Assembly (NCBI GenBank): GCA_013696235.1
Contig: JACCYY010000008.1
Span: 1 to 14,416 of the forward strand
Direction of reading: 5' to 3'
Length of the DNA stretch: 14,416 nt
Source: Sporichthyaceae bacterium
GTDB taxonomy: Bacteria; Actinomycetota; Actinomycetes; JACCYY01
Made by a program: the position numbers and the translations under genes. The notes under the pieces are model-generated. The model was given only the letters and a program-made list of their open reading frames with translations. It did no database searches and was not told the origin of the DNA. Positions 1-14,397 of this stretch are shown in pieces (within the stretch, counting starts at the first letter, position 1; each line of letters opens with the position of its first letter).

Positions 1-870
1 CACCGGGACCCCGCCGTCGAGGGCGGCTGGGCCCGGCTGGTCGAGGCGTGCCGCGAGTGGGACGGGCCGTCGATCATCTCGCAGGAGCTCTTCAGCCCCG
101 CAAGTCCCGAGCAGGTCGACACCGCGATTGCCGACCTCGCGTTCGCCGACGTGCATCTGGTCTACACCGCTCGGATGCTCGCCCTGCAGATCCCGGCGGC
201 CTGGCAGGAGGATCTGCGAAACCGGTTCAGTCCGAGACTCGACGAGTTCGTCGCAGCAGTCCGCCACCCTGACCAAGACAGGCAGGGTCTCGGCCGGATG
301 TTCTGGTCCATGCAGGATGCGACAGAGGTGCTGCGGCGATGGGGTCGAGATCTCCCGCGGGACCGGGTTCACGTCATCACAGTGCCCGGTCGCGCGAACC
401 CGCCCGACCTTCTGTGGCGCAGGTTCGCCACTGTCGTCGGGTTGGACCCCGACGCGTTCGACATCGATGGGTCGTACCAGAACTCCTCGCTCGGCGCCGC
501 CGAGGCCGCTGTGCTGCAGCGTCTCAACCTCGCGCTGAACGAGGAGATCGGATGGCCCCTCTACGGCGAGATGATCAAGCATCACCTCGCCGAGACGCTC
601 GCCGGGCGGCCCGGGTCGACCCGCATCCAGCTCGGGCGGGATGACGCGGCCTGGGCGGCTGAGCGCGGCGAGGAGATCATCGTCGGCCTCCGGAAGGCCG
701 GGTACGACGTGGCGGGCTCGCTCGACGAGCTCCGTTCGGCGCCGCCTTCCCCCGATGCGCCACCCGACGCACCGCAGGCGCCGGTGGAGGAGCAGCTCGA
801 CGTAGCCGTGGAGGCGATCGCCGCTTTGCTGCTGCGGATCTCCCGGCTGCGGAGGGGGGTCCGGCAATGA
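1..870 (+). CDS. Sulfotransferase-fold protein, array member 1 (5' end cut off)
   Basis: The reading frame is open from the first base of the window, so the N-terminus and the nucleotide-binding loop lie outside; 289 residues are visible. It aligns by eye with the four following genes: S-Q-E-L-F at visible residues 27-31, an R-M-L-A-L-Q-I-P-A-A-W-Q block from residue 58, an L-W-R-R-F-A-x-x-V-G-L-D-P-D block, and N-S-S-L-G followed by L-Q-R-L-N. The C-terminal end carries the paralogues' G-[YF]-D-[VI]-x-G-[SD]-x-[DE]-[DE]-L pattern. In PAPS-dependent sulfotransferases an Arg and a Ser eight residues later bind the 3'-phosphate; here the Arg is present but the Ser position is Ala (A66), and the usual R-D-L-A-R has become R-M-L-A-L. 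It may have reduced or changed cofactor binding. The stop overlaps the next start (ATGA, 867-870). Family assignment rests mainly on its paralogues. Confidence 0.8.
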   Translation, partial: HRDPAVEGGWARLVEACREWDGPSIISQELFSPASPEQVDTAIADLAFADVHLVYTARMLALQIPAAWQEDLRNRFSPRLDEFVAAVRHPDQDRQGLGRMFWSMQDATEVLRRWGRDLPRDRVHVITVPGRANPPDLLWRRFATVVGLDPDAFDIDGSYQNSSLGAAEAAVLQRLNLALNEEIGWPLYGEMIKHHLAETLAGRPGSTRIQLGRDDAAWAAERGEEIIVGLRKAGYDVAGSLDELRSAPPSPDAPPDAPQAPVEEQLDVAVEAIAALLLRISRLRRGVRQ

Positions 871-1958
871 ACGGGGGACCGCCGAGGATCTTCCTGCACA
901 TCGGGACGATGAAGAGTGGGACCTCCTACGTCCAAGGAATGCTCTGGCGCAGTCGGGTGGAACTCCGGGCCGGAGGGGTGCTCTACCCGGGCGAGGCGAG
1001 CTGGCTGGAGCAGGTGGAGGCGGTGCGCGACGCGATCGGCGTCGGCGGGCCTGAGCGGCGACCGGTCCAGGTCGGTGCCTGGCACGAGCTGACCCAGCAG
1101 CTTCTCGGCTGGTCCGGGCCAGTCGCAATCGTGTCGATGGAGCTGCTGAGCTTCGCCGGCAGGTCGAAGGTGGGCGAGATCGTCGAGTCCCTGCGGCCCG
1201 CCGAGGTCCACGCCGTCATCACCGCCCGCGACCTTGCTCGGGTGATCCCGTCGGCCTGGCAGGAATCGACCCAGAACCGCCAGACCTGGACCTGGCCCGA
1301 CTATCTCGCTTCCCTCACCGGCGACGGCACGCAGGAGCCCACGGCGTACCGGCGTTTCTGGAAGCACCACGACCTCGCCGTGATCGCCGACCATTGGGCG
1401 GCGGCGATCGGTGCGCAGAACGTCCACCTCGTGACGGTCGCGCCGGCCGGCGGTCCGCGCGACCAGCTCTGGCGTCGGTTCGCGACTGCCGTCGGGCTGG
1501 ACGCCGACCGCTACGTCGTCCCGGACGCCGTCCGGGGCAATCCCGCGGTCGGCGCGGCGTCCGCCGAGTTCCTCCGGCGGCTCAACGAGGGACTCATCGA
1601 CCTCGATCCAACGGCGTATGAGCGGCTGGTGAAGAAGTTCCTGGCAAAGCAGACGCTCGCCCACCGCACGGACGAGCCGCGCCTGGCACTCCCGGCGCGC
1701 TACCAACCTTGGGTTCTCGCCCGAGCCGCGACGATGGTCGAACAACTCAGGACCAGCGGGATCGACATCGTCGGCGACCTCGAGGACCTGCGACCGAGGT
1801 TCGACGGTGACGCCTCCGATCCCGACGCCGTGACTGAGCGAGAGGTCGCCGGCGCCGCAGTCCATGCCGCGCACGCACTTGTGCTCGAGCTCGCGGCCGA
1901 GCATGCCGACGGCGGCGGCGCACGGCGACCGCGGTCAAGGCGGGGCAGGCGCGGATGA
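867..1958 (+). CDS. Sulfotransferase-fold protein, array member 2
   Basis: This 363-residue cytoplasmic protein, with no signal peptide or membrane segment, begins with an H-I-G-T-M-K-S-G-T-S loop at residues 11-20. That matches the P-loop-like 5'-phosphosulfate site of PAPS-dependent sulfotransferases, with K16 as the expected cofactor lysine. R121 and S129 are eight residues apart, as in the classical 3'-phosphate site. E92 in S-M-E-L-L-S is conserved across the array and is a candidate catalytic base (inference). The L-W-R-R-F-A and R-R-L-N blocks follow. The last dozen residues are a basic tail rich in Arg. The ATG overlaps the upstream stop and has a strong GGAGGGGGG ribosome site at 851-859, seven bases away. 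The likely role is transfer of sulfate from PAPS to a glycan made by the downstream genes. The acceptor cannot be read from the sequence; a non-sulfating relative of this fold is possible. Confidence 0.82.
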   Translation: MNGGPPRIFLHIGTMKSGTSYVQGMLWRSRVELRAGGVLYPGEASWLEQVEAVRDAIGVGGPERRPVQVGAWHELTQQLLGWSGPVAIVSMELLSFAGRSKVGEIVESLRPAEVHAVITARDLARVIPSAWQESTQNRQTWTWPDYLASLTGDGTQEPTAYRRFWKHHDLAVIADHWAAAIGAQNVHLVTVAPAGGPRDQLWRRFATAVGLDADRYVVPDAVRGNPAVGAASAEFLRRLNEGLIDLDPTAYERLVKKFLAKQTLAHRTDEPRLALPARYQPWVLARAATMVEQLRTSGIDIVGDLEDLRPRFDGDASDPDAVTEREVAGAAVHAAHALVLELAAEHADGGGARRPRSRRGRRG

Positions 1959-3133
1959 CGAGCCCACGGCCCACGGCGCGCGCTCCCCGCACGCATCGCG
2001 ACGGCGTGCAACGGGTCTTTCTCCACATCGGCGCACCCAAGACGGGCTCCACCTACCTCCAACAAGCCCTGTGGCGCAACCGTGCGGCGCTCGCCGAGGG
2101 CGGCGTGTGCTATCCGCTGGACAGCGAGCACGCTCACTTCGCCGCCGCCCTCGACGTCTCGCGCCGTCCCTGGGGCGGCTCGTGGAACCCGGAGTGGGAC
2201 GGCGCGTGGGACCGCGTCTGCGGCAACATCCGCACGTCGACCGGACACCTGGCCGTCTTCTCCGACGAGCTGTTCGGTCTCGCCTCGCCGGCGCAGGCCG
2301 CCGCTGCGGTGCGCTCCCTCCGGCCGGCCGAGGTCCACCTCGTCTTCACGGCGCGCGATCTCGCCCGGCAGATATCAGCCGACTGGCAGGAGCAGATCAA
2401 GCACCGTCACACCGTTCCGTTCCGACGATTCGTAGACGACCTGGTCCGATGCGGGATCGACGCGCCGGAGCCATTCGGCGAGCTCTTCTGGGGTCTGCAC
2501 GACCCCGTCTACGTGCTGGACAAGTGGTGCGACGCAGTACCGCCGGAGCGCATCCACCTGATCACCGGTCCCCGCTCGACCGCACCGCGCGAGCTGCTCT
2601 GGCGGCGGTTCGCCACCACAGTCGGGATCGACCCGGACGCGTACGACGTCGAGGTCGACCTGGACAACCGTACGATGGGACTCGTCGAGGCCGAGTTCTT
2701 CCGGCGCTTCAACCTGGCCACGCGCGAACAGATGAGTCGTCACCATGGTCCTGTCCTCAACCGCGTGCTCGGCCAGGCGATCTTGTCCCGGCGCCCCGGC
2801 TCCCAGCCGATCCGGCTTCCGGCCGAGCACGCCGAGTGGGCACGGCAACGTTCGGCGCTGATGCGAGACGAACTGATTGCGCGCGGGTTCGACATCGTCG
2901 GCGACACGGACGAGCTCATCCCGCAGCAAGACGACGCGGTTCCGCAGGAAGACCCGGAGAAGTTCCCGCCCAGCGCGATCAACGCGGTCGCGTACGACGC
3001 AGTCGCCGGCCTGGTCGACCAGGTGGTGTCGCTTCGCGGTCGCGCCCGGAACCTCGCCGCCTGGATCGAGGACCGAGAACGGGGCGCGGTCGACCGGCTC
3101 GACAAGATGCACCGAGGAGATGAGCCCAGATGA
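1955..3133 (+). CDS. Sulfotransferase-fold protein, array member 3
   Basis: This is a 392-residue paralogue of its neighbours. A basic, Pro/Arg-rich leader of about 20 residues precedes the H-I-G-A-P-K-T-G-S-T loop at residues 24-33. S-D-E-L-F follows at 103-107 and R-D-L-A-R-Q-I-S-A-D-W from residue 134. The Ser of the 3'-phosphate motif sits at +7 (S141) and the +8 position is Ala (A142), unlike members 2, 4 and 5. The L-W-R-R-F-A-T-T-V-G-I-D-P-D block and a D-N-R-T-M-G ... F-R-R-F-N segment match the family's C-terminal half. By eye it is closest to member 1: they share E-L-F, A-S-P-x-Q and V-H-L-V-[FY]-T-A-R. The start was chosen for its ATGA overlap; the ribosome site is weak (GGGG at 1942-1945), and a GTG at 2006 is an alternative. 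Sulfotransfer to a glycan is inferred. Confidence 0.8.
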   Translation: MTSPRPTARAPRTHRDGVQRVFLHIGAPKTGSTYLQQALWRNRAALAEGGVCYPLDSEHAHFAAALDVSRRPWGGSWNPEWDGAWDRVCGNIRTSTGHLAVFSDELFGLASPAQAAAAVRSLRPAEVHLVFTARDLARQISADWQEQIKHRHTVPFRRFVDDLVRCGIDAPEPFGELFWGLHDPVYVLDKWCDAVPPERIHLITGPRSTAPRELLWRRFATTVGIDPDAYDVEVDLDNRTMGLVEAEFFRRFNLATREQMSRHHGPVLNRVLGQAILSRRPGSQPIRLPAEHAEWARQRSALMRDELIARGFDIVGDTDELIPQQDDAVPQEDPEKFPPSAINAVAYDAVAGLVDQVVSLRGRARNLAAWIEDRERGAVDRLDKMHRGDEPR

Positions 3134-4389
3134 TCGACGAACCGACCGTCGATGACCGCCCGCCGGGTGGCAACCGGGCGGTCTATCTCCACATCGGCAC
3201 GCTGAAGACGGGCACCTCGTTCATCCAGTCGGTCCTGCTGCGCAACGTCGACCGGCTCCACCATGACGGGATCCTCTTCCCGATCGACCAGACCCGGTGG
3301 GCACTGCAGGTTCGAGCGGTCCGCGACGTGCTCGACCGCAAGGGACAGACGCCGGTCCGCGGCGACTGGGACAGGCTGGTCGCCCAGATCACCGAGTGGC
3401 CTGGCCGCGCCTCCGTCGTGTCCATGGAGTTCCTCAGTCTTGCCACCACCGCGCAGGTGGAGACGATCGTCGGATCGCTGCAAGCAGTGGACGTCCACGT
3501 CGTGCTGACGCTGCGCGATCTCGCCCGGGTCCTGCCGTCGGCCTGGCAGTCGATGATCAAGCAGGGCAGACCATGGTCGTTCGAGGAGTTCGTCGCCGGC
3601 GTCACTGCCGACGATCCGAGGTCCAATGAACCGGGTCAACGGTTCTGGCTGCACCACGACGCGGTCACCATCGCCGAGCGGTGGCTCGCCGCGGTCGGTC
3701 CGACGCGGCTGCACGTCGTGACGGTCCCTCCGTCGTCAAGGCCACCGTCACTGCTGTGGCAGAGGTTCTGTGAGGTCCTCGCCCTGGATGGCGACGCGTA
3801 TGACATCACCCAGGACCAGAAAAGCAACTTCTCCCTCAGCTACAGCGACACCGAGTTGCTGCGACAGGTGAACGTCGAGCTCGCGACGATGCCCAAACGG
3901 GACCACAAGCGATGGGCGACCCGGTTCCTCGCCAACCGCGTCCTGCGGGCCGCGTCGAGCGAGGACATCGCCGACGACCGACCGGAGGTCGACGATGCAA
4001 CCAGGGATTGGGCGGTCCGACGGAGCGAGCTCTTGATCGAGGCACTGCGAGCGCTCGACCTCCACGTCGTGGGTGACCTCGAGGAGCTGCTCCCCCAGCC
4101 GCAGTCGAGCGACCGGGCAACGGCCGGCACGAAGATCGTCTACCCGGACCGCGCAGCGTACGTCCTCGCGTCCATGATCCGGAAGCTGGTCGAGATCGAG
4201 AGCGACAGGTCGGCCCGATCGACGGGCCAGGTCGCGACAGCGCCACTCCGACGCCGTCACAGACCCGGCGGCACCAGGCCGGCCGGCGACGGTGCATCTG
4301 ATGACCATGACGACGATGAAGACGACTTCTACGACCAGGAGGCGATCGACGAGGACCGTCCGCGACGGCCAGGAGAGCGGTCGCGGTGA
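3130..4389 (+). CDS. Sulfotransferase-fold protein, array member 4, with acidic tail
   Basis: At 419 residues this is the longest of the complete array members. H-I-G-T-L-K-T-G-T-S lies at residues 21-30 (K26), S-M-E-F-L-S at 98-103 (E100), and R129 with S137 give the canonical Arg-plus-eight-Ser 3'-phosphate pair. The later D-Q-K-S-N-F-S-L-S-Y and T-E-L-L-R-Q-V-N segment is almost the same as in member 5, so these two look like the most recent duplicates. After about residue 385 a linker leads to a very acidic patch (D-D-H-D-D-D-E-D-D) followed by a short Arg-rich end; the other members lack this. The start overlaps the previous stop (ATGA) and has GAGGAGA at 3114-3120, nine bases upstream. 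Cytoplasmic PAPS-dependent modification of the locus polysaccharide is inferred; the acidic tail might mediate protein contacts. Confidence 0.82.
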   Translation: MIDEPTVDDRPPGGNRAVYLHIGTLKTGTSFIQSVLLRNVDRLHHDGILFPIDQTRWALQVRAVRDVLDRKGQTPVRGDWDRLVAQITEWPGRASVVSMEFLSLATTAQVETIVGSLQAVDVHVVLTLRDLARVLPSAWQSMIKQGRPWSFEEFVAGVTADDPRSNEPGQRFWLHHDAVTIAERWLAAVGPTRLHVVTVPPSSRPPSLLWQRFCEVLALDGDAYDITQDQKSNFSLSYSDTELLRQVNVELATMPKRDHKRWATRFLANRVLRAASSEDIADDRPEVDDATRDWAVRRSELLIEALRALDLHVVGDLEELLPQPQSSDRATAGTKIVYPDRAAYVLASMIRKLVEIESDRSARSTGQVATAPLRRRHRPGGTRPAGDGASDDHDDDEDDFYDQEAIDEDRPRRPGERSR

Positions 4390-5510
4390 GCGTCGATCTC
4401 CCCGGCGTCGCAGACGTCTACCTGCACATCGGCACCATGAAGACCGGGACCTCCTATCTCCAGCAGGTGCTCGAGAGTCATCCCGAACAGCTCGCGGAGG
4501 AGGGCGTGCTCTACGTCAACCGGGGCCGCGACGCCGCCGGGGCGGTGCGGGACGTGCTGAGCCTGTCGAACCGACAACGCAACGTCGCCGGTGCGTGGGA
4601 GCGGATGGTCGGGCGGACCCATGCCTGGCCGGGCCGAGCGGTCGTGATCTCCAGCGAGCTGCTGAGCTTCGCCGACGACGCGACCGCCGAACGCGTGGTG
4701 GAGTCTCTCCGGCCGGCTCGGGTCACCGTGCTCGTGACCGCCCGCGACCTGGCCCGGTTGCTCCCCTCGGCGTGGCAGAACAAGATCAAGCACGGGCGCA
4801 GCTGGTCGCTGCACACGTATCTCGAGGCGGTGATGGCCGCTGACGCGGACCCCCGTGGTTCCGGGCGCAGCTTCTGGCATCACCATGACCTCGGGCAGAT
4901 CGTCGGTCGCTGGGTGCGCGCCGCCAGCGCGGCGGATGTGGTCGTCATCCCGGTCCCGCCGGACGGTTCGGAGCCCCGCTTGCTCTGGCGACGGTTCGCC
5001 GAGGTCATCGGGCTCAACGTCGACGCGTACGAGACGAACCAGGACCAGCGGAGCAACTTCTCGCTCGGGTACCCCGAGACCGAGCTGCTGCGGAGCGTCA
5101 ACCGCGAGCTCAAGACGACGTTCGACAGCGAGACCCACCGGCAGTACGTGCTCAAATACCTGGCGAACGAGGTGCTCCGCCCGGACCCGTCGTCCGGCGC
5201 CGTGCCGGACCGCGCGGTTCTCCCCCCAGCTGTCTACGACTGGGCGGTCGTGCGCAGTCGCGAGCTCGCCGACGAGGTGGTCGCGCTCGGCGTGCGGGTT
5301 CAGGGGGACATTGACGATCTGGTACCGATCCTCCTCACGGATGAGGAGCGAGCCACCGTGGCTACCGACACGAACGGGGAGCTTCCGGCCTGGGCGGTGC
5401 GCTTGGTGACCACGCTCGTGACTCGGCTCGCCGAGGCCGAGTCGTCGGCTCCGCAAGATTCGGCTGGTCCACGTCAGCGGAGGGCTCGGCCGGCCGGGCC
5501 GGAGGCATGA
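4386..5510 (+). CDS. Sulfotransferase-fold protein, array member 5
   Basis: This 374-residue paralogue starts with GTG in a GTGA overlap with the previous stop; AGGAG at 4371-4375 is a plausible ribosome site. The cofactor loop H-I-G-T-M-K-T-G-T-S is at residues 14-23 (K19). S-S-E-L-L-S is at 90-95 (E91), and R120 with S128 form the canonical 3'-phosphate pair within R-D-L-A-R-L-L-P-S-A-W. F-W-H-H-H-D, L-W-R-R-F-A-E-V-I-G-L and S-N-F-S-L-G-Y ... E-L-L-R-S-V-N complete the family pattern and pair it with member 4. The C-terminus is a short Arg/Pro-rich tail. Its stop overlaps the start of the galactofuranosyltransferase-like gene, so it is probably translated with the glycan-polymerising genes. 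That is the main reason for assigning a polysaccharide-modifying role (inference). Confidence 0.82.
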   Translation: MSVDLPGVADVYLHIGTMKTGTSYLQQVLESHPEQLAEEGVLYVNRGRDAAGAVRDVLSLSNRQRNVAGAWERMVGRTHAWPGRAVVISSELLSFADDATAERVVESLRPARVTVLVTARDLARLLPSAWQNKIKHGRSWSLHTYLEAVMAADADPRGSGRSFWHHHDLGQIVGRWVRAASAADVVVIPVPPDGSEPRLLWRRFAEVIGLNVDAYETNQDQRSNFSLGYPETELLRSVNRELKTTFDSETHRQYVLKYLANEVLRPDPSSGAVPDRAVLPPAVYDWAVVRSRELADEVVALGVRVQGDIDDLVPILLTDEERATVATDTNGELPAWAVRLVTTLVTRLAEAESSAPQDSAGPRQRRARPAGPEA

Positions 5511-6445
5511 CGCGGTATCCCGGCGCACGTCCGCCGGGCGCGTTGAAGGTGATCGCGGTGGTCGTCTCGTTCAACCGTCGCGATCTCGTTCTCGAGGTGC
5601 TCGGCGCCATCGCCGCGCAGACCCGACCACCGGACCACGTCGTCGTGGTGGACAACGCGTCGGGCGACGGCAGCGCGCGTGCGGTCCGGTCGGCCTTTCC
5701 GCAGGTCGAGGTGATCCAGCTCGGGCGGAACGTCGGAGGCGCGGGCGGGTTCGCACTCGGGCTCTCGCGCTCGCTCGACGAAGGTGCTGACGCGGTCTGG
5801 CTGCTCGACGATGACGCCGTCCCGAACCCTGACGCGCTCGGCGCGCTGGTCCGGGCCTGGACCTCGTACGACGGGGCACCGCCGGCGGCCGTGGCGAGCC
5901 GAGTCGTCTGGGTCGACGGCACGGAGCACCGGATGAACATCCCGCGGCGCCGACGAGGGGGGTCAGCGAACCAGGCGCTGCGAGCGCGTGCCGTCGGCTG
6001 TGAGCCGATCCGCTCGGCCTCGTTCTGCTCGATCCTGCTCGATGGTGACGCTGCACGGCAGGAGGCTGCCCCGATCGCCGACTACTTCCTCTGGAACGAC
6101 GATTTCGAATACACCGCCCGACTGCTGCGACGGCGGACCGGGCTGCTCGCCCCGGCAAGCGTTGTCGTGCACAAGACGGTGGACCACTACAACAGCGGCA
6201 GCAACCCCGGACCGCGCTTCTTCTACGACGTCCGCAACATGGTGTGGATGCTCGGGCGCAGCGCAGCCCTCTCCCCGTCGGAGCGCGCGTTCTTCGCGAT
6301 CGTCACATCCCGGCGGGTGGTGCGGACGATCGCCCGCTCGGCCAACCGTGCCACACTGGTGCGCCAGCTCCTCCGCGGATTGCGGGCTGGCCTGGTGTCC
6401 GGTCCGCGCCCCACCGAGGAAGTCCTCGCAACGGTACGGCGCTAG
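5507..6445 (+). CDS. glfT1: GT2 glycosyltransferase, GlfT1-like galactofuranosyltransferase
   Basis: The 312-residue protein has a GT-A fold pattern: V-V-S-F-N-R-R-D near residue 20, V-D-N-A-S at 48-52 (D49) for nucleotide binding, and N-V-G-G-A-G-G-F-A-L-G at 75-85. L-L-D-D-D lies at 99-103, where the Asp triplet would bind metal and UDP, and W-N-D-D-F-E-Y at 196-202 resembles the GlfT2 W-D-D-A-D catalytic site. Length and the G-G-A-G-G-F-A-L-G to D-D-D spacing resemble mycobacterial GlfT1 (about 304 residues), which adds the first galactofuranose residues to the lipid-linked primer of galactan. The sugar specificity is inferred from that likeness and from the neighbouring glf and glfT2. The ATG overlaps the upstream stop; GGAGG lies only one base before it, so translational coupling probably decides the start. 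TTG 5543 or GTG 5549 are alternatives. Confidence 0.75.
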   Translation: MTRYPGARPPGALKVIAVVVSFNRRDLVLEVLGAIAAQTRPPDHVVVVDNASGDGSARAVRSAFPQVEVIQLGRNVGGAGGFALGLSRSLDEGADAVWLLDDDAVPNPDALGALVRAWTSYDGAPPAAVASRVVWVDGTEHRMNIPRRRRGGSANQALRARAVGCEPIRSASFCSILLDGDAARQEAAPIADYFLWNDDFEYTARLLRRRTGLLAPASVVVHKTVDHYNSGSNPGPRFFYDVRNMVWMLGRSAALSPSERAFFAIVTSRRVVRTIARSANRATLVRQLLRGLRAGLVSGPRPTEEVLATVRR

Positions 6446-9710
<3,265 letters not shown>

Positions 9711-9711
<1 letters not shown>

Positions 9712-9746
9712 TGAGGCATTCTCGTCGGTTGGACATCCGCGGGTGA
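9711..9746 (+). CDS. Possible 11-residue coupling micro-ORF before wzm
   Basis: The frame encodes M-R-H-S-R-R-L-D-I-R-G. Its ATG shares one base with the glfT2 stop (TGATG, 9709-9713) and its stop overlaps the wzm GTG (GTGA, 9743-9746). It has the best ribosome site in the area. No other start codon in the wzm frame lies between the two genes. It may act as a leader whose translation carries ribosomes into wzm; whether the peptide itself matters is unknown. It could also be a chance frame, as it is very short and strongly basic in composition. Confidence 0.35.
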
Positions 9747-10666
9747 CCACGCTCGACACCCGGACTGAGATCGAGTCCGACGACCTGGCGACCGGCGGCA
9801 AGCACCGGTTGCACGAGCCCGGCGGCCGGGGTGGCCTGATCGAGGTCGTCCGCCACCGCACGGTGCTCTCCATGCTCGCCCGCAGAGACGTCCGGATGCG
9901 CTACCGGTACTCCTCGCTGGGGTTCGCGTGGGCGTACGTCAAGCCGACGATCCAGTTCCTGGTCTACTACTTCATCATCGGTGTCGTCCTGGGGCTCGAG
10001 CGGCGGGTCGAGAACTTCGCCGTCTACGTGTTCTCCGGTCTGTGCCTGCTGTTCTTCTTCAACGAGACGATCGGCAACGCCACTCGCTCGATCGTCAAGA
10101 ATCGCGCGATCGTGAAGAAGATCTGGCTGCCTCGGCAGGTGTTCCCGATCGCCGGTGTCATCGTCGCCGCCAGCCGCTTCGTGCCGCAGTTCTTGATCCT
10201 CATGATCGGCGCGACCGCGACCGGCTGGTACTTCACCTGGACCGGGCTGGCCGCGGCCGTCGCCGGGGTGGGGGTCGTCGTCGTCTGGGGTCTCGCGCTG
10301 GGCCTCCTGCTGTCCGCAGTGAACGTGTACCTGCGGGAGGTCCAGAACTTCCTGGAGCTCACCGGCTTCCTCACGCACTGGTTGACGCCGATGATCAAGC
10401 CGTGGACCCTCGTGGCGAGCCGTCTGGTCCCGGACTTGGGGCTGGCTGGTGTCATGCTCTTGACCGCCTACCTCTGGAACCCGCTCACCACGGCCGTGGA
10501 GTTGTTCCACCTCGCCTTCTGGTCACCGACCGTGGACTACTACTTCGAGCTCTCGCCGTACCTGTGGACACGCGCGTACGTGTTCTTCGGACTCGGCGTC
10601 GTCGTCCTGGCCGGCTCCCAGTGGTTGTTCAAGCGCCTGCAGGTTCGATTCGCCGAGGAGCTCTGA
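9743..10666 (+). CDS. wzm: ABC-2 type polysaccharide export permease (Wzm/TagG family)
   Basis: This 307-residue integral membrane protein should form, as a dimer, the channel that moves lipid-linked polysaccharide across the cytoplasmic membrane. A soluble N-terminus of about 50 residues ends in the family-typical R-M-R-Y-R-Y-S-S-L-G-F-A-W segment (about 51-63). About six hydrophobic spans follow, near residues 66-84, 92-108, 136-160, 168-192, 232-250 and 278-297. A charged K-N-R-A-I-V-K-K-I-W-L-P loop between spans two and three is characteristic of these permeases. The GTG start overlaps the micro-ORF stop; translation probably depends on coupling. The next gene encodes its ATPase three bases downstream. 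The substrate is most likely the galactofuran made by glfT1 and glfT2 (inference from context). Confidence 0.9.
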   Translation: MTTLDTRTEIESDDLATGGKHRLHEPGGRGGLIEVVRHRTVLSMLARRDVRMRYRYSSLGFAWAYVKPTIQFLVYYFIIGVVLGLERRVENFAVYVFSGLCLLFFFNETIGNATRSIVKNRAIVKKIWLPRQVFPIAGVIVAASRFVPQFLILMIGATATGWYFTWTGLAAAVAGVGVVVVWGLALGLLLSAVNVYLREVQNFLELTGFLTHWLTPMIKPWTLVASRLVPDLGLAGVMLLTAYLWNPLTTAVELFHLAFWSPTVDYYFELSPYLWTRAYVFFGLGVVVLAGSQWLFKRLQVRFAEEL

Positions 10667-10669
10667 ACC

Positions 10670-11404
10670 GTGTCATCGGCGGTGATCGTGCGCGAGGCCA
10701 GCAAGAGCTTCCAGCTCAGGCACGACTTCACGATTCGCGATGCCTTGGCCAATCGCCGCAAGCGCCAGGATCCCAGCAACATCGTGCAAGCGCTCGAGGA
10801 CGTGAGCTTTCACGTGGACCAAGGTGAGGGACTGGCCCTCATGGGCCAGAACGGTTCTGGCAAGAGCACTCTGCTCAAGTTGATCTCAGGCGTTATGCAG
10901 CCAGACTCAGGCACGGTGCACGTTCGTGGGACGATCGCCGGCCTGATCGACGTCGGTGCTGGCCTGCATCCCGAGCTGACCTGCCGCGAGAACATCTACC
11001 TCAACTCCGCGATCCTCGGCATGACCCGTGCCCAGACGGCGACCAACTTCGACGCGATCGTCAGCTTTGCAGGCCTCGAACGCTTCCTCGACACCCAGGC
11101 GCGGTTCCTGTCCTCCGGCATGTTCAGCCGGCTCGGATTCTCGGTGGCGATCCACACCGAGCCCGACATCTTCCTGGTCGACGAGGTCCTCGCGGTCGGC
11201 GACGGGCAGTTCAAGCGCAAGTGCAGGCGCGCCCTGATCGCCCAGCGCGTGAAGGGTATGACGTTGATCATCGTCGCTCACGAGGTCGACCTGCTGCGTC
11301 GGCTGTGCTCGAACGCCGTGGTGCTGGACCAGGGGCGGGTCGTGTTCCAGGGTCCGCTCGCCGACGCGGAGAAAGTCACCGGCGATGACGACGATGGGAA
11401 CTAG
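10670..11404 (+). CDS. wzt: Polysaccharide export ABC transporter ATPase (Wzt/TagH family)
   Basis: The 244-residue ATPase powers the permease encoded just upstream. Walker A is G-Q-N-G-S-G-K-S-T at 59-67. The signature region L-S-S-G-M-F-S-R-L-G-F-S-V-A (around 148-151) is the S-S-G-M form typical of polysaccharide exporters. Walker B is I-F-L-V-D-E ending at D171-E172, and the switch His is H204 in V-A-H-E. The protein stops soon after the nucleotide-binding domain, so it lacks the C-terminal carbohydrate-recognition domain of O-antigen Wzt proteins that sense a capped chain end. Export is then probably coupled to synthesis or independent of a cap (inference). The start is GTG, with GAGGAG at 10655-10660 nine bases upstream. 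The 3' end overlaps the next gene by 20 bases. Confidence 0.93.
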   Translation: MSSAVIVREASKSFQLRHDFTIRDALANRRKRQDPSNIVQALEDVSFHVDQGEGLALMGQNGSGKSTLLKLISGVMQPDSGTVHVRGTIAGLIDVGAGLHPELTCRENIYLNSAILGMTRAQTATNFDAIVSFAGLERFLDTQARFLSSGMFSRLGFSVAIHTEPDIFLVDEVLAVGDGQFKRKCRRALIAQRVKGMTLIIVAHEVDLLRRLCSNAVVLDQGRVVFQGPLADAEKVTGDDDDGN

Positions 11405-12473
11405 CCCGGCGTCGTCCCGTCCCGTTCGCGACGGCGCAACGGGACAGAGTCGGCTCCTGCACGTCCCGCCGGACGAAGTGATCGCCCCGCTCCACATGGA
11501 CCTACCGGTCGCGCTCAGCACGTACGACGACGCCATCGCCTTCCCGCTCACGACCAGGCCGGGTAAGCCCCGCATCTTCGGCGCGGTGTACGAGCGAGAC
11601 GGCCGGCTCGTGCCCGACAGCGAGCGGCCGAAACGCAACCGGTCCTGGCGGCCCAACCCGAGCCGGCTGCGCGGGACCGGTTCGAGCTCCCCGGTGCGGG
11701 TGCCGGGACGGACGTTCTATGCCGGGCACTTCCGTCCAGGCTTCGGCCACGTCCTGGTGGAGACCTTGCCGCGGTTCTGGCCGGACCTCGACTACGACAC
11801 GTTCGACCAGTTCGCGCTCTATCCCACCCGCGCCGGCCAGACCAGGACTGCGCCCAACCTCCCGCGGTACGCAGTCGACCTGCTGCACGCGCTCGGGGTC
11901 CGACCGGACCGGTCCCTCCTGGTCAGCACGCAGGCCCTCCAGTTCGAGGAGCTCGTGGTGGCGACCCCGGCGTTCTGGCTCAGGCGCGGCAGCAACCCGG
12001 TGTGCGCCGAGCCGTTCCGGCGCATCGGTGACGCGCTGGACGACCGGCCCGACCACGATCGGCTGCCGACGGACTCGCGGCGCATCTACCTCAGTCGGGC
12101 CAGGCTGCGGCCGCCGCAGCGCCGCGCACTCAACGAGGCGGGCATCGAGGACCTCATGCGCCTGGCCGGCTTCGCGGTGATCCACCCGCAGGAGCACCCG
12201 GTGCAGACGCAGATCCGGATGATCCGGCGAGCAGACGCGATCGCCGGCTGCGACGGCTCGGCCCTGCACCTCGGTGCGTTCGCCCGACCGGGTACGACGC
12301 TGCTGGCGATCGACTCGCGCACCGTGCTGAACCAGCTCATCATCGACGAACTCAGCGGTCTTGACGCGGTGCACGTGTATGCCGTCGACCACGCCATCGT
12401 GGGTCGCACGGGGGAGTGGGAAGCCGACCTCGACCGCGTCCGCGAGGCGATGGCGGCCGCCGGACTCGACTGA
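11385..12473 (+). CDS. GT61-family glycosyltransferase
   Basis: The 362-residue protein shows the pattern of bacterial GT61 (DUF563) enzymes, found in capsule and surface-glycan loci. F-G-H-V-L-V-E-T-L-P-R-F-W lies at 120-132, R-I-Y-L-S-R-A-R-L begins at 233 and is followed by R-R-A-L-N-E, and Q-I-R-M-I-R-R-A-D-A-I-A-G-C-D-G-S-A-L-H-L runs across about 276-297. There is no signal peptide or membrane span, so it should act in the cytoplasm, probably adding a side-branch or terminal sugar before export. The sugar cannot be predicted. It overlaps wzt by 20 bases; GGAGAAAG at 11368-11375 is a suitable ribosome site, and a second ATG three codons on is an alternative. It is the last gene of the plus-strand run and converges with metF. 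Confidence 0.82.
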   Translation: MTTMGTSPASSRPVRDGATGQSRLLHVPPDEVIAPLHMDLPVALSTYDDAIAFPLTTRPGKPRIFGAVYERDGRLVPDSERPKRNRSWRPNPSRLRGTGSSSPVRVPGRTFYAGHFRPGFGHVLVETLPRFWPDLDYDTFDQFALYPTRAGQTRTAPNLPRYAVDLLHALGVRPDRSLLVSTQALQFEELVVATPAFWLRRGSNPVCAEPFRRIGDALDDRPDHDRLPTDSRRIYLSRARLRPPQRRALNEAGIEDLMRLAGFAVIHPQEHPVQTQIRMIRRADAIAGCDGSALHLGAFARPGTTLLAIDSRTVLNQLIIDELSGLDAVHVYAVDHAIVGRTGEWEADLDRVREAMAAAGLD

Positions 12474-12500: not shown

Positions 12501-12518
12501 GCCGGCGGGCTAGCCGGC
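12501..12518. terminator. Possible bidirectional terminator hairpin between convergent genes
   Basis: GCCGGC at 12501-12506 can pair with GCCGGC at 12513-12518 around a six-base loop. It lies between the converging ends of the GT61 gene and metF and includes the metF stop. There is no T-run on either side, so a Rho-independent terminator is only a weak suggestion. Confidence 0.3.
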
Positions 12519-13415
12519 GAGGTGCCGAGACCGGTCGAGCCCGAGCTCGGCATAGATCTCCCTCGTCGCGGTCGAGTTGTTGAGCGTGTAGAAATGCAGC
12601 CCCGGTGCGCCCTCGGCCAGCAGCCGCTGGGCCATGTCGGCGGCGTGCGCGGCGCCCACCGAACGGACCGCCTGGGGGTCGTCGGCCACCGCGGCGAGCC
12701 GGGCGGCGAGGTCAGCCGGCAGGCTGGCACCGGAGAGGACGGCGAACCGCTCGATCTGCGCGAGGTTCGTGACCGGCATGAGCCCGGGGATGATCGGTAC
12801 GTCGCAACCGGCAGCTACCACGTCGTCGCGCAGTCGCAGGTAGTCCTCGACCCGGAAGAACATCTGGGTCACGGCGAAGTCGGCACCGGCCCGAACCTTC
12901 GAGACGAGGTGCGCCACGTCCGTGGCCCGGTCCGGCGATCGGGGATGCTTCTCCGGGAACGCCGCGACGCCGACGCTGAACGACCCGCTGGCCCGGACCA
13001 GGGCGACGAGCTCGGCCGCGTATCCGAGACCGTGCGGATGGCGGACCCAGTCGCCGGCGGGGTCCCCGGGAGGATCCCCCCGGAGCGCGAGCACGGTCCG
13101 GACCCCCGCGTCTGCGTACTGCCCGATCACGTGGCGGAGCTCGCTCACTGAGTGGGAGACCGCAGTGAGGTGCCCCACCGGCGTCAGCGTCGTGTCGGAG
13201 GCGATGCGAGCGGTCGTCCGAACGGTGCGATCGCGGGTGGCACCACCGGCACCGTAGGTGACCGACACGAACGTGGGTCTGAGCGCCTCCAGCTCGCGAA
13301 TCGCCCGCCAGAGCGCGACCTCGCCGGCCTCGGACCGTGGCGGCATGAACTCGAAGGAGAAGGCGGGCTCGCCGCGGCGCAGAAGATCACCGATGGACGG
13401 TGCCAGATCGGCCAT
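12510..13415 (-). CDS. metF: Methylenetetrahydrofolate reductase
   Basis: MetF reduces 5,10-methylenetetrahydrofolate to 5-methyltetrahydrofolate using FAD, supplying the methyl group for methionine synthesis in the cytoplasm. The 301 residues match the usual bacterial length and the single TIM-barrel domain. F-S-F-E-F-M-P-P-R at 19-27 holds the catalytic Glu (E22), and [12 protein letters not shown] is at 50-61. V-L-A-L-R-G-D-P-P at 108-116 carries the flavin-site Asp (D114), and [10 protein letters not shown] and I-P-G-L-M-P-V-T follow. The ATG has a GAGAGGAGA ribosome site (13425-13433 on the complement), nine bases away. It is convergent with the galactan operon and divergent from a sulfotransferase gene, and has no evident functional tie to either. 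It seems to be a housekeeping gene lying within the surface-glycan locus. Confidence 0.96.
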
Positions 13416-13537: not shown

Positions 13538-13552
13538 ATGGGTGCGACGTGA
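13538..13552 (+). CDS. Possible four-codon leader (M-G-A-T) before the sulfotransferase
   Basis: The ATG at 13538 opens a four-codon frame whose TGA overlaps the GTG start of the next gene (GTGA, 13549-13552). With the -10 hexamer just upstream it could be a leaderless start that delivers ribosomes to a GTG that has no ribosome site. It is short enough to be chance. Confidence 0.2.
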   Translation: MGAT

Positions 13553-14397
13553 GGACCATCATCGTGCTCGGGATGCACCGCAGTGGTACCTCGGCCATCG
13601 CGCGCGCGCTGGGGCGCCTCGGTGCCGAGACCGGAGCGCCGGACCAGCTCGGCCACCTCGTCGAGCACCGCGGGCTGCGGACGGTGAACCGACAGCTCAT
13701 CAGCCGCGCCGGCGGGACCTGGGACGGGCCACCGCCTGGCGCGCACTGGCTCGATGACCCGCACCTGGAGCGCTTCGATGCCCGCGCCGCGGAAGCGATG
13801 CGGGCGGCGTTCGAGGACGCGGACGTCGTGGTCTGGAAGGACCCGCGCACCTGCCTCACCCTGCCGCGCTGGCTGCCGCATCTCGGCGATCGGCCGGTCG
13901 CGGTCATCATTCACCGGCACCCCGTCGAGGTGGCCGCATCCCTGGAGGTGCGCAACCGGATGGGCGCGAGCCTGTCGTTCGCAGTTTGGGAGCGCTACAA
14001 CGCCGAGGCACTCCGGCACGCGGCGGGCCTTCCGACCTTCGTCGTCGAGTACAGCCAGACGGTCAACGAACCGCGTGAATCCATCGTCGCCCTCGCCGAG
14101 GCGCTGGCGACCTGGGGGGTCACTCTGCCGAACGACCCGCGGACGACCGATGTCGGGCTCGTCGCCACCGAGCGCCATCACCAAGCCGACCTCGTCGATC
14201 GCTTCGACCACCCGGACGCGACGCCGTCACAGCTCGCGCTCTTCGAGCACCTCAGGCGGCTCGGGGGGGCGCATGACCTGCTCATCCCCCCGACTCCGGC
14301 TCCTGAGCCGAGCCAGGCCAGCGTCGACCTCATGCGACGCGCGGCTCGAAGGCGGCTGGAGCGCCGCACGCCATCTCGACCTCATCCGGTCCGATGA
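13549..14397 (+). CDS. Sulfotransferase family protein of the G-M-H-R-S-G-T-S subfamily
   Basis: This 282-residue cytoplasmic protein opens directly with the PAPS-binding loop G-M-H-R-S-G-T-S at 8-15. It has a W-K-D-P-R motif at 96-100 and R123 with S131 in H-R-H-P-V-E-V-A-A-S, the canonical 3'-phosphate pair eight residues apart. The loop sequence, the W-K-D-P-R motif and the shorter length separate it from the five array members, so it is not a recent copy of them. Related proteins are commonly found in bacterial surface-polysaccharide clusters. The GTG start lacks a clear ribosome site; no earlier in-frame start is available nearby. Its stop overlaps the ATG of another gene at 14394, suggesting a second operon of the same locus. 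Acceptor unknown. Confidence 0.85.
   Translation: MRTIIVLGMHRSGTSAIARALGRLGAETGAPDQLGHLVEHRGLRTVNRQLISRAGGTWDGPPPGAHWLDDPHLERFDARAAEAMRAAFEDADVVVWKDPRTCLTLPRWLPHLGDRPVAVIIHRHPVEVAASLEVRNRMGASLSFAVWERYNAEALRHAAGLPTFVVEYSQTVNEPRESIVALAEALATWGVTLPNDPRTTDVGLVATERHHQADLVDRFDHPDATPSQLALFEHLRRLGGAHDLLIPPTPAPEPSQASVDLMRRAARRRLERRTPSRPHPVR

Follow-up and report, generated by a model that had tools for sequence, protein, structure and literature searches.

What role could five genes for sulfotransferase-fold proteins play directly upstream of a set of galactofuran genes? This question is raised by contig JACCYY010000008.1 of a Sporichthyaceae bacterium (assembly GCA_013696235.1). The window analyzed here is this entire contig (C65; 14,416 bases), and it comes from a metagenome-assembled genome (MAG) of 1.92 Mb in 384 contigs that is 73% complete. 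Sulfated polysaccharides are thought to be rare in bacteria, and the presence of the array in a galactan cluster points to a sulfated wall sugar that has so far gone unrecognised in bacteria. With a probability of roughly 0.6, the five genes (ST1–ST5) encode cytosolic carbohydrate sulfotransferases (STs) that depend on 3'-phosphoadenosine 5'-phosphosulfate (PAPS) and decorate galactofuran or its side sugars before Wzm/Wzt export. A preliminary description of this DNA had likewise proposed a sulfated or otherwise decorated galactofuran, and that reading was supported. Fold, motifs, gene order, linkage and co-occurrence were computed here, and from them we infer sulfation activity, a galactofuran acceptor, the position of the sulfate and a timing before export.

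ST1 (positions 1–870; N-terminus lost at the contig edge; family profile 323 bits), ST2 (867–1958; 424 bits), ST3 (1955–3133), ST4 (3130–4389) and ST5 (4386–5510) all lie on the forward strand. The five junctions from ST1 through glfT1, which starts at 5507 within the end of ST5, are 4-base overlaps, ATGA in four cases and GTGA in one. BLASTP matched all ten pairs of the five proteins at 33–43% identity (worst E 2e-31). The coordinates of the open reading frames (ORFs) and these comparisons bore out the proposal of five diverged paralogues arranged head to tail with 4-base overlaps. The number five holds for the ORFs present but may be too low, because the contig begins within ST1 and the array may therefore have been longer.

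The genes that follow lie downstream of glfT1 on the same strand. The GlfT1-like GT2 glycosyltransferase (5507–6445), a putative galactan initiator, is followed by glf, encoding UDP-galactopyranose mutase (6515–7765), glfT2, encoding the galactofuran polymerase (7762–9711), a wzm-like permease gene of the polysaccharide exporter class of ATP-binding cassette (ABC) transporters (9743–10666), a wzt-like ABC ATPase gene (10670–11404) and a GT61 glycosyltransferase gene (11385–12473; PF04577, 71.5 bits). The array had been said to run straight into this operon; the gene order was confirmed, but a gap of about 70–150 bases separates glfT1 from glf, depending on whether glf starts at 6515 or 6596. 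From sequence, the predicted identities of GlfT2 and Glf are secure. GlfT2 carries PF17994 and PF19320 above cut-off (Glft2_N 117.9 bits and GlfT2_domain3 146.5 bits against 26.1 and 27), and in phmmer searches of solved chains it matched the galactofuranosyltransferase 9dtp (E 1.4e-148) and GlfT2 4fix (E 4.7e-142). In Glf the GLF domain scored far above its cut-off (PF03275, 273 bits), TIGR00031 gave 332 bits against 303.75, and solved UDP-galactopyranose mutase chains matched at E 1e-142 or better. GlfT1, Wzm and Wzt are called 'like' because they missed the NCBIfam equivalog cut-offs (83 of 330, 30 of 380 and 157 of 400 bits, respectively), and their assignments follow the best match plus position: PF00535 (68 bits) and the GlfT1 model for the first, phmmer to 6oih (E 9e-11) and NF050109 for Wzm, which had no Pfam match at E 0.001, and PF00005 and NF050108 for Wzt.

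Structure models of the array proteins showed the alpha/beta fold of PAPS sulfotransferases, and the nearest structures by Foldseek were glycan-sulfating enzymes. The check for a PAPS fold was thus positive. The proteins have no membrane segment. PAPS-type loops are present in all four complete proteins (KTGTS in ST4 and ST5, KSGTS in ST2 and KTGST in ST3), and the corresponding region of ST1 lies off the contig. The 5'-phosphosulfate loop Lys was found in 73 of 86 family stretches, with a gap in 6 more, and is carried by ST2–ST5; the 3'-phosphate Arg was found in 84 of 86 and in all five window proteins. The P-loop Lys, a Glu and the Arg are conserved across the family stretches. A Ser usually binds the 3'-phosphate at this site. 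The Ser eight residues after the Arg is present in three of five (ST2, ST4 and ST5) and is Ala in ST1 and ST3; the preliminary description had noted PAPS-type loops and Arg/Ser motifs in most of the proteins. The alignments comprised 83 proteins, of which 6 were omitted in alignment A2 and 19 in A3.

None of the five proteins passed a Pfam or NCBIfam cut-off. The sole match to Pfam sulfotransferase families was that of ST5 to Sulfotransfer_3 (15.2 bits against the 27 needed), and the array proteins were not assigned to these families because their scores fall below the curated cut-off. A profile search of solved chains returned 3rnl at E 0.0026; chains of NDST or 3-OST were absent from the matches even at E values as high as 10. 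Judged by their sequences, the array proteins are outside the animal NDST/3-OST family, and the relation would be one of working alike.

The linkage between the array and glfT2 recurs in other genomes. With the window GlfT2 as query, loci from named genomes were limited to the 80 best among 583 confirmed matches, and STs were labelled by a six-frame search with the ST family profile. This label superseded that of a simple gene caller, by which 36 of 82 sources, including the window and L129, had been array-bearing. Family members were found in 39 of the 80 loci (87 ORFs above 50 bits, 1–8 per locus), and the distance from glfT2 to the closest ST is at most 2.6 kb in all 39 (at most 2 kb in 33). 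The Arthrobacter, Demequina, Actinomyces and Kineococcus loci showed no array in the DNA fetched, and some negative labels may reflect contig ends, as in L069, which starts inside glfT2. Five changes of the array trait are needed on the GlfT2 tree, which has 86 rows. The window GlfT2 falls within a clade of 40 rows (support 99) in which 36 bear arrays, and a second clade, from uncultured Actinomycetes, bears them in 5 of 5 rows, two of which are identical and probably one genome. In some cultured strains one or two array genes were found beside glfT2; strains with the linkage include the isolates Thermomonospora catenispora and Nocardioides aequoreus, as well as Actinoallomurus spadix (L016). 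Its relative Actinoallomurus iriomotensis (L017) showed no array in the 10 kb around glfT2. The highest number was seen in a Propionibacteriales MAG (L020:1-13110), with eight array genes around a single glfT2.

Gene phylogeny and gene order point to a shared core. The ST tree, a quick tree with a single kind of support, held 81 rows (4 of 85 family hits were left out). ST1 falls in a group of 10 rows with genes of Thermomonospora, Actinoallomurus and Actinomadura (support 99), and ST3 in a group with genes of Actinomadura and Nocardioidaceae/Propionibacteriales (99), an orthologue group common to Thermomonosporaceae and these lineages. A further group (99) unites ST4 and ST5 with a gene from contig C38 of the window's own genome; within it the C38 gene is sister to ST5 (83), and ST2 adjoins this group at 83. 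In 11 of 11 Thermomonosporaceae loci holding two STs and glfT1, the order along transcription is that of the window, ST1-type, ST3-type, glfT1 (by best BLASTP hit). In 17 of 20 Thermomonosporaceae loci glfT1 has an ST as its same-strand neighbor; of the remaining three, two have no visible glfT1 on a short contig and L016 has its ST elsewhere. The ST–glfT1 genes are continuous with glf–glfT2 in the window, whereas the two sets are divergent in Thermomonosporaceae.

Family members also occur away from glfT2. Among 39 comparison relatives, all drawn from the class of the window genome and from outside its genus and family, four (G008, G013, G028 and G035) have related STs, none with a GlfT2 match. 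The STs of G013, G028 and G035 form a separate clade, and the G008 row is outside the tree. Loci L130, L131, L132 and L133 represent a separate clade of the family in genomes without any GlfT2 match. The array family therefore also serves other pathways. Further STs lie on other contigs of the window's own genome. Besides one such ST, a 7.1-kb contig encodes two divergent relatives, a group-1 glycosyltransferase and, truncated where the contig stops, a CCPSR sulfatase. The two divergent relatives that follow the ST on C38 stand in tandem (L124:1412-2449 and about 2449-3500; 106 and 36 bits).

Donor supply was assessed in the genomes behind all 80 loci. APS (adenosine 5'-phosphosulfate) kinase makes PAPS, which is cytosolic. 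A strong APS kinase match was found in 39 of 39 array genomes and 11 of 41 array-less genomes (Fisher p 4e-13, with related rows), at a line of E < 1e-10 that was chosen after the scores were known. The array genomes scored at least 187 bits in 38 cases, and one kinase was split into two pieces of 96 and 84. The array-less genomes on either side of the line had at least 60 bits (11 genomes, of which 9 reached 186 bits or higher and 2 had partial matches) or at most 28 bits or no match (30 genomes).

The neighbors of the arrays provided a second connection with sulfate. In an untargeted clustering of locus genes (clusters in at least four loci), a sulfatase ranked first after the STs. By its own profile it was found in 17 of 39 array loci and in 0 of 41 others, a count that covers the family of this one profile, other sulfatase families not having been sought in the loci. 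All 17 are in Thermomonosporaceae, on either side of the operon, and 10 of the 17 proteins have a lipobox-like stretch. An initial active-site pattern was too strict (0 of 18 matched), and a loosened pattern was used for the counts: CCPSR in 4 of 17, CCTSR in 10 of 17 and no match in 3, of which L024 shows CCTSR by eye. The usual sulfatase motif is C-x-P-x-R, which CCTSR replaces in L018, L022, L023, L027, L028, L030–L032, L038 and L046. In addition, a GH43 enzyme with CBM35 occurs in 10 loci, all array-bearing.

Several observations weigh against sulfation of galactofuran by the array, and some of them fit other explanations. Five or more enzymes are many for one polymer. In 10 of the 39 array loci, some of them short contigs (L005, L007–L013, L020 and L062; Nocardioidaceae and Propionibacteriales MAGs), the DNA fetched showed no glf and no wzm, and in these ten the STs flank glfT2, often on the opposite strand. 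Together with the related STs in relatives lacking a GlfT2 match and the extra STs elsewhere in the own genome, this could mean that the proteins are true PAPS sulfotransferases whose acceptor is another envelope molecule (a glycolipid, a teichuronic-type polymer or a protein glycan), encoded in the same envelope island by chance. We consider such a coincidence rather unlikely, given that an ST lies within 2.6 kb of glfT2 in every array-bearing locus, that ST5 overlaps glfT1 and STs adjoin glfT1 in most Thermomonosporaceae loci, and that the array is found in two separate GlfT2 clades.

Other unfavourable points concern PAPS itself. Foldseek support taken alone is moderate (best E 2e-5 to 3e-4), and the 3'-phosphate Ser is replaced by Ala in 51 of 86 family stretches (Ser in 30). 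APS kinase is widespread across the class in general (of 296 drawn genomes, 253 pass the cut-off, weak P-loop hits included); a tree-corrected test of array against APS kinase had only four pairs, of which one or two agree and none opposes, and was not significant; and no gene in any of the 80 loci matched two Sat/APS-kinase seeds. The own-genome check for cysD/cysN/cysC-type genes was negative: in this 73% complete MAG no APS kinase, PAPS_reduct-family (CysD-like) gene or CysN was found above cut-off, a gap that may be one missing operon. The Ala substitutions, the missed Pfam cut-offs and this gap would suit a sulfotransferase fold recruited for another job, with a different donor or binding without catalysis. 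We regard this as improbable in view of the conserved P-loop Lys, Glu and Arg, the APS kinase in all 39 of the other array genomes and the sulfatase near 17 arrays. That the array is misassembled or a contaminant is very improbable indeed: the MAG is fragmented and the window is a whole contig cut within ST1, but the C38 gene is sister to ST5, and misassembly was rejected because the isolates T. catenispora (L006) and N. aequoreus (L025) carry the same linkage.

Cytosolic sulfation of galactofuran is the reading we prefer, and it suggests the following route. In mycobacteria, GlfT1 and GlfT2 polymerise UDP-galactofuranose on a lipid carrier at the inner membrane face, and Wzm/Wzt export the chain. 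In the window lineage, Glf would supply UDP-galactofuranose, and GlfT1 and GlfT2 would build the chain on a lipid carrier at the inner membrane face. The STs would sulfate the growing galactofuran, or a side sugar (for instance one that the GT61 enzyme attaches), in the cytoplasm, and Wzm/Wzt would export the chain afterwards; action before export is proposed because the STs look soluble and the PAPS they would need is cytosolic. The paralogues would differ in the hydroxyls or zones of the chain that they serve. The ST1 and ST3 groups, common to other families, form a core of two or more enzymes that probably sets two kinds of sulfation site, and ST2, ST4 and ST5 look like additions of the window lineage, perhaps for more positions or zones. 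In Thermomonosporaceae, the nearby-encoded sulfatase, apparently a lipoprotein, could trim sulfate outside the cell. As a tentative but quite possible extension, Thermomonosporaceae, Nocardioidaceae and several uncultured actinomycete lineages may make a sulfated galactofuran wall polymer in which an NDST/3-OST-like array, working in the cytoplasm, writes a variable multi-site pattern that a surface sulfatase then edits, so that the patterning logic of heparan sulfate would be applied to a furanose. If so, an anionic wall polymer has been overlooked in a cultured actinomycete group, and the enzyme family that makes it lies outside Pfam recognition; this would offer a genetic handle on pre-export sulfation and a collection of enzymes that sulfate furanose sugars.

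Further genes were noted around these loci. In the window, a methylenetetrahydrofolate reductase gene lies at 12510-13415 on the opposite strand. Past it, a forward-strand gene (13549-14397) encodes a separate protein of 282 aa whose match to Sulfotransfer_3 is weak (26 against 27 bits); it was rejected as a sixth array member, since the array family profile gave no match. A PF03567 sulfotransferase gene stands beside the array in the second GlfT2 clade (L129:16982-17704; 24.7 against 22 bits), with relatives in L063, L064 and L076. In 16 loci (15 from Thermomonosporaceae, plus L033) a large conserved protein is encoded close to the galactan genes; one member, L014:10186-11868, has no Pfam match.

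A literature search with limited reach into subscription journals returned no description of sulfotransferases in a GlfT2 locus. The window resembles the mycobacterial arabinogalactan galactan pathway in its GlfT2 with both specific Pfam domains, its Glf and its ABC exporter, and differs in the five added sulfotransferase-like genes and the GT61 gene, and in GlfT1, Wzm and Wzt proteins below equivalog cut-offs. The heparan-sulfate enzymes NDST1 and 3-OST-1/3/5 share 10–17% identity with the array in aligned parts; unlike them, the array is bacterial, lacks a membrane segment and presumably acts on a furanose. The nearest published system found is the wps-1 cluster of the actinomycete Actinoplanes missouriensis. 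According to the accessible part of that report, its predicted product is a sulfated polysaccharide, possibly with galactofuranose; two STs are predicted, one with a heparan-sulfate ST domain, and loss of an adjacent sulfate adenylyltransferase/APS kinase gene harms sporangia (PMC13390465). As described there, wps-1 differs in its Wzx/Wzy route, STs of two families and absence of a GlfT2 polymerase, ABC exporter and tandem array (PMC13390465). The same 2026 paper, in that part, confines bacterial sulfated polysaccharides to cyanobacteria (PMC13390465), which is contradicted by the Cobetia marina KMM 1449 capsule, with an established sulfated structure, an ABC exporter, STs and PAPS genes in the accessible text (PMC11766843). 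An ABC-exported bacterial polysaccharide can therefore be sulfated, although the Cobetia polymer, as presented there, is of rhamnose and mannose without galactofuran, comes from another phylum and has its PAPS genes within the cluster (PMC11766843). Synechan of the cyanobacterium Synechocystis is likewise described, in the text available, as a sulfated exopolysaccharide whose gene set is defined (PMC8205485). A sulfated polysaccharide locus is thus a known kind of system; what is new here is the family to which the enzymes belong, their arrangement as an array and the galactofuran context.

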